A DNA stretch of 64,000 bases from Pseudomonadota bacterium. Lineage in GTDB: Bacteria; Pseudomonadota; Gammaproteobacteria; Burkholderiales; Rhodocyclaceae. Position 1 is the first letter of the stretch, and every line of letters begins with the position of its first letter. The notes below the pieces were generated by a model. It was not told the DNA's origin. It saw only the letters and a list, made by a program, of their open reading frames with translations, and made no database searches. The DNA lies in contig JAFEDI010000130.1 of the NCBI GenBank assembly GCA_018241725.1, positions 16,363-80,362 on the forward strand. Reading direction: 5' to 3'. The translations under genes were made by a program, and so were the position numbers. Shown piece by piece: positions 11,009 through 47,258 of this stretch.

Positions 11009-11845
11009 ATGTCCCGAACCAATAGCCCCGCGCCGGCCATCGAATTGCGCGGCGTCTCCCGCCGTTTCACCGATCCGGGCGGACAGAACGTCGGCGTCCA
11101 GCCGACCAGCCTGGCGGTGCCCGCCGGCGAGATCCACGGCATCATCGGTTTCTCGGGCGCCGGCAAGTCCACGCTGCTGCGCCTGGTCAATCTCCTCGAA
11201 CGGCCCGACGCGGGTGAGGTGATCGTGCACGGCCAGGACCTGACCCGCCTGTCCGCAGCCGGGCTGCGCCAGGCGCGCCACCGCATCGGCATGATCTTCC
11301 AGCACTTCAACCTGCTGCATAACCTCACGGTGGCCGAGAACGTCGCGCTGCCAATGCGCCTGTCCGGCGAGCCGGCGGCGCGGATTCGCGAACGCGTCGC
11401 GGCCTGCCTCGACTTCGTCGGCCTCGCCGCCAAGGCCGACGTGCATCCGGGCCGCCTCTCGGGCGGACAAAAGCAGCGCGTGGCCATCGCCCGAGCGCTG
11501 GCGCCGGAACCCCACGTGCTGCTCGCCGACGAACCAACTTCAGCCCTCGACCCACGGACCACGCTGGACCTGCTCGGCGTGCTGGCCGACGCCAACCGGC
11601 GCTTCGGCGTGACGATCCTGCTGGTCAGCCACGAGATGGAAGTCATCCGCCGCCTGTGCCATCGCGTGTCGGTGATGGAGGCCGGCCAGATCGTCGAGCA
11701 GCTCGACATCGCCAACGGACGCATCCCGGAAGGCTCGCGCCTGGGCGGCTGGCTGGCGGAGTTCGGCGGTACGACGGGCAGTGCTTCGCCCGAGCCGATC
11801 GAGCCTGCGCCCCATCATCTCGTCCAGGAGAGCGCCCATGCTTGA
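11009..11845 (+). CDS. metN: Methionine ABC transporter ATP-binding protein MetN (short form)
   Basis: This 278-aa ATPase belongs to the methionine importer MetNIQ. Walker A reads GFSGAGKST, with the GMIFQHFNLL Q-loop, the LSGGQKQRVAIARAL signature and the LLADEPTSALD Walker B. It is shorter than Escherichia coli MetN (343 aa) and appears to lack the C-terminal NIL (ACT-like) domain that mediates methionine trans-inhibition, so feedback control of transport may be absent. The ATG at 11009 is preferred over an upstream TTG. Its 3' end overlaps metI by 8 nt. Confidence 0.92.
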   Translation: MSRTNSPAPAIELRGVSRRFTDPGGQNVGVQPTSLAVPAGEIHGIIGFSGAGKSTLLRLVNLLERPDAGEVIVHGQDLTRLSAAGLRQARHRIGMIFQHFNLLHNLTVAENVALPMRLSGEPAARIRERVAACLDFVGLAAKADVHPGRLSGGQKQRVAIARALAPEPHVLLADEPTSALDPRTTLDLLGVLADANRRFGVTILLVSHEMEVIRRLCHRVSVMEAGQIVEQLDIANGRIPEGSRLGGWLAEFGGTTGSASPEPIEPAPHHLVQESAHA

Positions 11846-44779: not shown

Positions 44780-45571
44780 ATGGAAACGGGATTGAACGCC
44801 TTCCTGGTCGCGCTGCTCGGCGGCAGCCTCGCCACCTCCGTGTGGTGGTCGAAATGGACGCAGGTCCGCAGGAGCCATCGTTCGGCCCTGGCCGAGCGGG
44901 ACCGGCTCATCGACGAGCTCGGGCCGCGCATCCCGCCGGCCGAGGCGGAAGCGACGCGGGCCTCGCTGCAGGCGCGCATCGACGCGCTGGAGCAGCACCT
45001 CGCAGCCCAGCAGAACAGCCACCAGGCGGCGCTCGCCCGTAGTCGCGAGGAGGCCGAGGCGGCGAGCGCCGCTGCCCTCGCGGCGCTGGAGGCAGCGCAC
45101 CAGCAGAAGCTGGCCGAGCAACGCAGTGCGCTGGCCACAGAGCAGGGCGCTTGGCAGGGGAACGTGGCGTCCCTGCAAGGCATGATCCGCAGCCTGGAGC
45201 GCTGGCACGGCGAGATGCAAGCCATCTTGCGCAACAACCAGGAGCTGAAGAAGCAGAACGAGCAGTTTCAGAACATCAACAAGAGCGTAGTGATGCTCGC
45301 CCTCAATGCGTCCATCGAGGCGGCCCGCGCCGGCGAGCAGGGCCGGGGCTTCTCGGTTGTCGCCGACGGCGTGCGCGACCTGGCGCTGACCTCCACACGC
45401 CTGGCCCAGGACTACAAGACCAACCTGGACAAGAACGACCTGATCACTACGACTACCTTCCAGGACATGCAGGCCAGCGGCAACATGATCCGCACGGCGC
45501 TGTTCGGGCTCGGCGCAACCACGGACCGCATCGCCCGGATCGTCGCCGGGCAGGACGGGGCGCATGATTAG
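44780..45571 (+). CDS. Minimal MCP-like signalling protein without a sensory domain
   Basis: This 263-aa protein has one N-terminal membrane anchor (about 5-23) and a long Ala/Glu/Gln-rich coiled coil (about 50-160). A short piece of the methyl-accepting hairpin tip follows, with [20 protein letters not shown] at about 175-194. There is no ligand-binding domain, no HAMP and only a short return helix, so it is a stripped-down receptor. The tip normally contacts CheA and CheW; here the kinase has no CheW-like domain. Its 3' end overlaps the next gene by 8 nt. Confidence 0.8.
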
Positions 45572-46136: not shown

Positions 46137-46205
46137 CGACTTGCCGGGGCATTCTCAAGTGATTATTTCACTTGCATATAAATGCAGAGTGGCTAAACTT
46201 CACGG

Positions 46206-46298
46206 CGCGACACCTTGATGAGTCATCTCCATCCTGGTGTCGTTCTGTAGATGACTCCCAGCTTTTGTCCGGCCACCCCCCTGGCCGGCTTTTTTTTT
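46206..46298 (+). ncRNA. Candidate structured small RNA with pseudoknot and terminator
   Basis: A sigma-70-like promoter (TTGCAT 46172-46177, 16-nt spacer, TAAACT 46194-46199) predicts a start near 46206. A hairpin CGACACC (46208-46214)/GGTGTCG (46236-46242) with an inner GATG/CATC stem follows. Its loop region GAGTCATCT (46220-46228) is complementary to AGATGACTC (46249-46257), giving an H-type pseudoknot or a switch between two helices. A terminator (CCGGCCA/TGGCCGG, 46269-46288, then a run of about nine T) closes it, for about 93 nt. It matches no family I know. It lies between the second CheX-like gene and the two-receiver gene. Confidence 0.65.
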
Positions 46299-46445
46299 GC
46301 CCTCTGTTCCTGCTCTTCGTGCCGTCCGCGCTCCGGGGCAATCGATCCATGAGCGCCGTTTTCGCCATTTTTTAGCGGATCGACCTCAATTTTTTTCATT
46401 TTTGTTCGCTAACAGTGCCGTCCAAACTGGTTAGGCACAAAAACA

Positions 46446-47258
46446 ATGACGAACACCGCTTCCCGATTCGAGAACACCCGGCTCCTGCTCGTCGAGCCGT
46501 CGGCCCTGCAGGCCAAGATCATCCAGCGGGAGTGCGAGGAAATTGGACTGACTCGCGTCCGCACGGTCGGCAGCTCCGCGGAAGCCCTGGAGGCAATGCG
46601 CGCGGAGCGGCCGGATGTGGTGCTCAGCGCCCTCTATCTGCCGGATCTGCCCGGTACGGAGCTGGTGGCGGCGATGCGCACCGATCCGCGTCTTGAGGAT
46701 GTGGCCTTCATCCTGATTTCCAGCGAAACCCGCCCGCAGGCCCTCGACCCCGTGCGGCAGGCCGGCCTGTGCGGCATCCTGCCCAAGCCCTTCGATGCGT
46801 CCCAACTGGCCAGGGCGATCAGCCGCACGATGGATCTGCTCGGTACTCGACGCGATCTTGAGAACGAGGTCGACCTGGAGGAGGTGCGCGTACTGCTGGT
46901 GGACGACAGCCCCAATGCGCGCAAATTCATCCGGCGCATCCTCTCCAACCTGGGGCTGCAGCACTTCATCGAAGCGGATAACGGGCGGGAGGCCGTGGTG
47001 CTGCTCGGTGACACGATGGTCGACCTGATCGTCACCGACTACAACATGCCGGAGATGGATGGTCGGGAGCTCGTCGAATACGTGCGAACCCGCAGCTGGC
47101 AGCAAGCCGTGCCGATCCTGATGGTGACCAGTGAATCGGACGCCGGCCGTCTGGCCGCTGTGGAGCAGGCCGGCGTGTCAGGCATCTGCGACAAGCCGCT
47201 GGAGACGGACATGCTGCTCGACCTGCTCACTACCATGCTCCAGCGCGATCAGGACTGA
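46446..47258 (+). CDS. Tandem-receiver response regulator (REC-REC)
   Basis: This 270-aa protein has two CheY-like receivers. In the first (about 10-130) the phospho-Asp position reads VVLSALYLPDL, so Asp is replaced and the domain is probably inactive, although KPF is kept. The second (about 145-268) is intact: LLVDDSPNARK, IVTDYNMPEMDG, Lys in CDKPL. There is no output domain. It is separated from the chemosensory genes by the small RNA and its terminator, and has an AT-rich leader (46370-46440). It may be a phosphate sink or a second output of the same system. Confidence 0.88.
   Translation: MTNTASRFENTRLLLVEPSALQAKIIQRECEEIGLTRVRTVGSSAEALEAMRAERPDVVLSALYLPDLPGTELVAAMRTDPRLEDVAFILISSETRPQALDPVRQAGLCGILPKPFDASQLARAISRTMDLLGTRRDLENEVDLEEVRVLLVDDSPNARKFIRRILSNLGLQHFIEADNGREAVVLLGDTMVDLIVTDYNMPEMDGRELVEYVRTRSWQQAVPILMVTSESDAGRLAAVEQAGVSGICDKPLETDMLLDLLTTMLQRDQD

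Follow-up and report, generated by a model that had tools for sequence, protein, structure and literature searches.

Comparative analysis of the window, by which we mean the whole stretch of 64,000 nucleotides analysed, suggested that the intergenic region upstream of a two-receiver response-regulator gene encodes a stand-alone, lineage-specific small RNA (sRNA) of ∼93 nt that acts in trans, a reading to which we assign a probability of roughly 0.7 on the basis of sequence comparison and folding models. According to this reading, a promoter of its own would drive an RNA that ends at a U-tailed intrinsic terminator, a single-stranded linker of 24 nt would probably serve as the seed that pairs with targets, and Hfq would probably be loaded at the U-rich 3′ end. 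In addition, weak pairing is possible between the apical loop of a hairpin (UCAUYU) and the centre of the seed (AGAUGA), and might tune access to the seed.

Organization of the locus

All features described here are on the forward strand and are numbered by their position in the window. A promoter-like element (46172–46199) is composed of TTGCAT (46172–46177), a 16-nt spacer and TAAACT (46194–46199), and its spacing would place the transcript at about 46205–46297. The RNA is predicted to contain a nested stem-loop (46207–46243), consisting of a lower stem (46207–46214/46236–46243), an upper stem (46217–46220/46230–46233) and an apical loop that includes UCAUCU. It is followed by the linker GTTCTGTAGATGACTCCCAGCTTT (46242–46265), which is mostly single-stranded and is the proposed seed, and by an intrinsic terminator (46269–46298) with a 7-bp GC-rich stem (46269–46275/46282–46288) and nine T (46290–46298). 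The preliminary description of this DNA had been built on the terminator with its T run and on two interlocked pairs of complementary segments, namely helix 1 (S1; CGACACC, 46208–46214, with GGTGTCG, 46236–46242) and helix 2 (S2; GAGTCATCT, 46220–46228, with AGATGACTC, 46249–46257), and all of these parts are present.

The promoter in that description stands in part. The TTGCAT-16-TAAACT pair is aligned and kept in all four homologs described below (with TAGAAT in G020), but it is weak relative to the E. coli consensus, and a consensus scan that needs 9 of 12 positions found no promoter. The −35 region is overlapped by a palindrome (46172–46187), imperfect in the source genome (TTGCATATAAATGCA), decayed in G020 and reading TTGCATA-AA-TATGCAA in G021 and G016, which is a possible operator. 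No regulon is evident for it, since its one further exact site in the source genome is situated within a 415-aa open frame and G012 and G018 contain none.

Distribution among relatives

When 100 related genomes, among them the 23 Zoogloea genomes analysed, were searched at the DNA level, strong matches were returned from four genus genomes: the source genome (G000), G020 (94% identity), G021 (85%) and G016 (86%; query 19–111), the next best match having an E-value of 0.008. Scanning genome contigs for 21 linker bases recovered three contigs, corresponding to G020, G021 and G016. The covariance-model search that the preliminary description had proposed as a check, run with stricter filters and covering 21 of the 23 genus genomes, found four copies at 110–117 bits in the same four genomes, one strong copy in each; beyond these, scores peaked at 26.4 bits in 395 genomes of the family and at 30.1 bits in 200 of the order. 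The RNA thus appears to be restricted, judging from these searches, to one clade of a few closely related Zoogloea.

Several weaker matches were considered and rejected. Query positions 19–50 matched many genus genomes at 84% identity, and the nine loci examined as possible paralogs share, by eye, one reading frame, which we take to be TerC-like. Linker matches with at most two mismatches occurred in 40 of the 395 genomes, and 30 loci from those genomes had no run of six T just downstream; the near-linker matches in G012, G010 and G142 share one similar context that looks coding by eye. Ten of the covariance hits of 20–30 bits outside the four genomes were inspected and were not convincing. 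Three of these ten, all from one genus (L150, L157, and L166), cover the hairpin and some of the linker but lack the terminator; they were rejected as coding because they are situated in a shared 358–359-aa frame. The others align mainly through the terminator or the hairpin, with L177 aligning over some of the linker as well.

Sequence constraint and coding potential

The linker comprises 24 contiguous columns that are invariant in all four genomes. For comparison, 70 of 136 four-fold sites (51%) of the adjacent two-receiver gene are invariant across the four. Four-fold sites differ by 15% between G000 and G020 and by 29–35% in all other pairs, including G021 versus G016, so that the four genomes represent about three lineages. 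At 51% invariance, the chance of 24 invariant columns is ∼1e−7 per start position, uncorrected for scanning, which makes it unlikely, as far as this alignment can tell, that the run arose without constraint. The two-receiver gene itself, on the other side, also has an invariant run of 29. The sequence directly upstream of the promoter and directly after the terminator aligns poorly among the four genomes, and the terminator stem is paired in all four. These observations bear on the possibility that the locus is a non-functional remnant, or that a terminator and a hairpin have come together by chance between two genes. The weak promoter consensus and the narrow distribution would fit it, but 24 invariant columns, a compensated hairpin and a kept promoter and terminator would have to persist despite four-fold differences of 15–35%, and we regard it as the most improbable of the readings weighed here. 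Promoter, hairpin, linker and terminator are conserved together in four genomes, which argues for the discrete small-RNA unit first proposed.

There is no conserved open reading frame in the RNA: a 10-aa ATG frame occurs in two of the four sequences, and the remaining two have no frame of at least 8 aa that ends within the RNA. One linker frame (46243–46268, forward strand; frames were partly read by eye) reads SVDDSQLLSG, which we take to resemble the way receiver domains begin (VDDSxLL). It continues beyond the linker in G000, G021, and G016 and meets a stop in G020; the resemblance could be due to chance, or the frame could be what is left of a receiver gene.

Secondary structure and the proposed pseudoknot

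The 96-nt RNA at 46202–46297 folds at −37 kcal/mol, which beats all 200 shuffled sequences (z −4.62), and its minimum-energy fold consists of the nested hairpin and the terminator, without the second helix. In this fold, helix 1 extends to a nested stem of 12 pairs, in which 48 of 48 cells are paired over the four sequences; for the whole nested structure the four-sequence alignment gave 76 of 76, while slid versions pair 24–49% of cells. Two pairs of the upper stem are changed on both sides (U-A and G-C to C-G and A-U), turning GATG/CATC into GACA/TGTC with pairing retained. Both compensated pairs are common to G021 and G016, so that each may go back to one event. The controls are modest: column shuffles matched the observed covariation score together with the pairing percentage in 17 of 500 cases, the number of pairs changed on both sides in 370 of 500 and the number of further pair types in 469 of 500. 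With four homologs only, the covariation is thin. The linker is predicted to be largely open, with a mean unpaired probability of 0.67–0.77 in all four sequences.

The preliminary description had interpreted S1 and S2 as an H-type pseudoknot, or as two alternative folds, of a structured sensor or regulatory RNA, possibly one that senses a ligand. In the two closest genomes, G000 and G020, S2 is indeed intact (9 bp plus 2, with a duplex energy of −13.1 kcal/mol), and these are the only genomes in which it is. The columns of its 5′ arm change from GAGUCAUCU to AUUCAUUUC in G021 and to AUUCAUCUC in G016, breaking seven of nine pairs in the former and eight of nine in the latter; taken over all sequences, eight of nine pairs fail somewhere. 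Within the four-sequence alignment, 58.3% of S2 cells are paired and no compensatory change was found. The 3′ arm never changes because it is situated inside the invariant run of 24 nt (46242–46265), and column shuffles of S2 are consequently uninformative either way. S1 and S2 jointly pair 76.6% of cells, as compared with 26.6–45.3% in slid versions, and this value is mostly owed to S1. Moreover, S2 competes with the upper stem, which is the part of the molecule that shows compensation. In the covariation check suggested at the outset, compensatory changes were seen in two pairs of the nested stem and in none of S2.

Interlocking alone is also unremarkable. Perfect interlocked helices of at least 7 and at least 9 bp arose in two of 3000 shuffles of the intergenic stretch, but the whole-window count is the fairer comparison, since 64 kb had been scanned when the motif was noticed, and here three interlocked pairs of that size were counted, where 20 shuffled windows gave 1.4 on average. 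The two further pairs of the same size class lie at 11374–11441 and 45026–45082.

What may remain of the idea is a weaker contact between loop and linker, which is possible on modelling grounds. Loop-linker complementarity in G000 and G020 is equalled by 0.6% of shuffled loops, that is, it beats more than 99% of them; in G016 the proportion is 3.3%, which is borderline, and in G021 it is 21%, which is unremarkable. A shifted contact of 6 bp (UCAUYU/AGAUGA) can be drawn in both G021 and G016. With S2 lost uncompensated in two of the four homologs and opposed by a compensated stem, we consider a pseudoknotted or switching sensor RNA unlikely.

Comparison with known RNAs

That the RNA matches no known family, as had been stated from the sequence, was borne out by Rfam: none of 4227 models reached its gathering score in the window, nor did any in six loci that included L002, L003, and L004. 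Generic Hfq-dependent trans-acting sRNAs combine a stem-loop, a single-stranded seed and a Rho-independent terminator. The candidate resembles them in the order of its parts, in a conserved stretch that is predicted to be single-stranded and could serve as a seed, and in U-rich sequence before and after the terminator stem; it differs in matching no sequence family. Protein sponges of the CsrB/RsmZ type carry repeated GGA motifs in loops, and none of the four RNAs contains a GGA motif.

By E-value, the best Rfam score below threshold belonged to Hrs13 (RF02631), which aligned through the terminator and hairpin; at 20.7 bits against a gathering score of 52, we judged this to be chance and rejected the identity. 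Hrs13 stands for Hfq-regulated sRNA 13 and is named five times in a paper on Erwinia amylovora (PMC4070566). The nearest pseudoknot sRNA considered is RydC, an enterobacterial Hfq-dependent sRNA whose pseudoknot is described as highly conserved and needed for stability, and whose predicted pairing with cfa mRNA uses the RydC 5′ end (PMC4337610). Both are short RNAs with a 3′ terminator and a U-rich tail in which interlocked segments can be drawn. The Zoogloea RNA differs in that its second helix is unconserved and its invariant stretch is the linker. Within the portions of the Zoogloea literature that our search reached, nothing on this RNA and nothing resembling sRNA work was found.

Gene neighbourhood

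The two-receiver gene (46446–47258; Pfam Response_reg in two stretches) is the constant downstream neighbour in all four genomes, which would be expected if the RNA were a cis-acting leader or attenuator whose terminator readthrough feeds the two-receiver mRNA. Three observations count against such an arrangement. First, within the RNA upstream of the terminator, no 5-nt segment is complementary, by Watson-Crick pairing, to the 6-nt core of the 5′ or the 3′ arm of the terminator. Second, a motif CTCAA-N15-TTCGCTAA (46385–46412), which we take to resemble a sigma-28 (FliA) promoter, is separate from the sRNA and precedes the two-receiver gene in 16 of 19 genus loci (one of the three exceptions, L093, matches only in part and lies close to the end of its contig); from its position, it would be the gene's own promoter, located after the sRNA terminator. 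Third, close homologs of the two-receiver gene (E-value below 1e−58) are found in 19 of the 23 genus genomes, and 15 of these 19 gave no strong RNA match; the gene is 90–100% identical within the four genomes and 67–73% in its best match elsewhere. Since no antiterminator is evident and the terminator is followed by a sigma-28-like promoter of its own standing, the RNA does not resemble a leader riboswitch, and we hold an attenuator to be very unlikely.

The chemosensory setting of the first account is not conserved among the four genomes. The upstream gene is CheX-like in G000 and G020; the window copy, at 21.1 bits, falls short of the Pfam cut-off of 27, and the G020 copy, compared by eye, is almost the same. 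At the same position, G021 and G016 have a divergent thioredoxin-like [2Fe-2S] ferredoxin gene (PF01257), presumably of the formate-dehydrogenase gamma type. With a CheX-like neighbour in two of four genomes, a conserved chemosensory link is not supported by the gene order.

Candidate targets and Hfq

An Hfq gene above the Pfam cut-off is present in all four genomes, and binding of the U-rich 3′ end by its product would be consistent with the proposed stand-alone sRNA. When complements of the linker were sought by pattern, a single start region came up recurrently, namely the leader of a gene that we take to belong to the arylsulfatase family; most other recurrent sites lay within open frames or on the strand opposite to them and were set aside. 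The leader site CATCTACAGAA (L193, L195, and L196) matches the linker in G020, G016 and G021 and has a mismatch in G000 (L194). Relative to the start codon it spans about −42 to −17, and it ends 8–11 nt before AGGAA. Predicted duplex energies are −30.3 kcal/mol in G021, −28.4 in G016, −22.6 in G020 and −10.4 in G000, where a duplex of −17.5 kcal/mol falls in coding sequence (+22 to +40), outside the leader. Among 31816 overlapping background windows of G021, 0, 5, and 192 reach −30.3, −28.4, and −22.6, respectively. The leader is absent from five further genus genomes, out of nine with a match at E-value 1e−60 or better. Because each genome has thousands of start regions and the site was found by search, the arylsulfatase-family leader is suggestive at most as a target, and in G000 it is not supported. 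Pairing of the linker with the start region of the two-receiver gene was equalled by 242, 265, and 274 of 300 shuffles in three of the four genomes and by 17 of 300 in G021.

A more elaborate version would combine these elements into a young sRNA that arose in one Zoogloea clade. In it, a pseudoknot between apical loop and linker would mask the seed, its register having moved by one base from lineage to lineage with the contact kept, and the RNA would control an arylsulfatase-family mRNA in the majority of clade members. To this version as a whole we give a slender chance.

Significance

Our analysis indicated an sRNA gene that is probable, narrow in distribution and otherwise ordinary-looking. 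It opens no new RNA class, but gives Zoogloea an sRNA that has apparently not been described before. The case also illustrates how a few genomes, once compared, can tell a likely sRNA apart from a pseudoknot that is attractive but not conserved.
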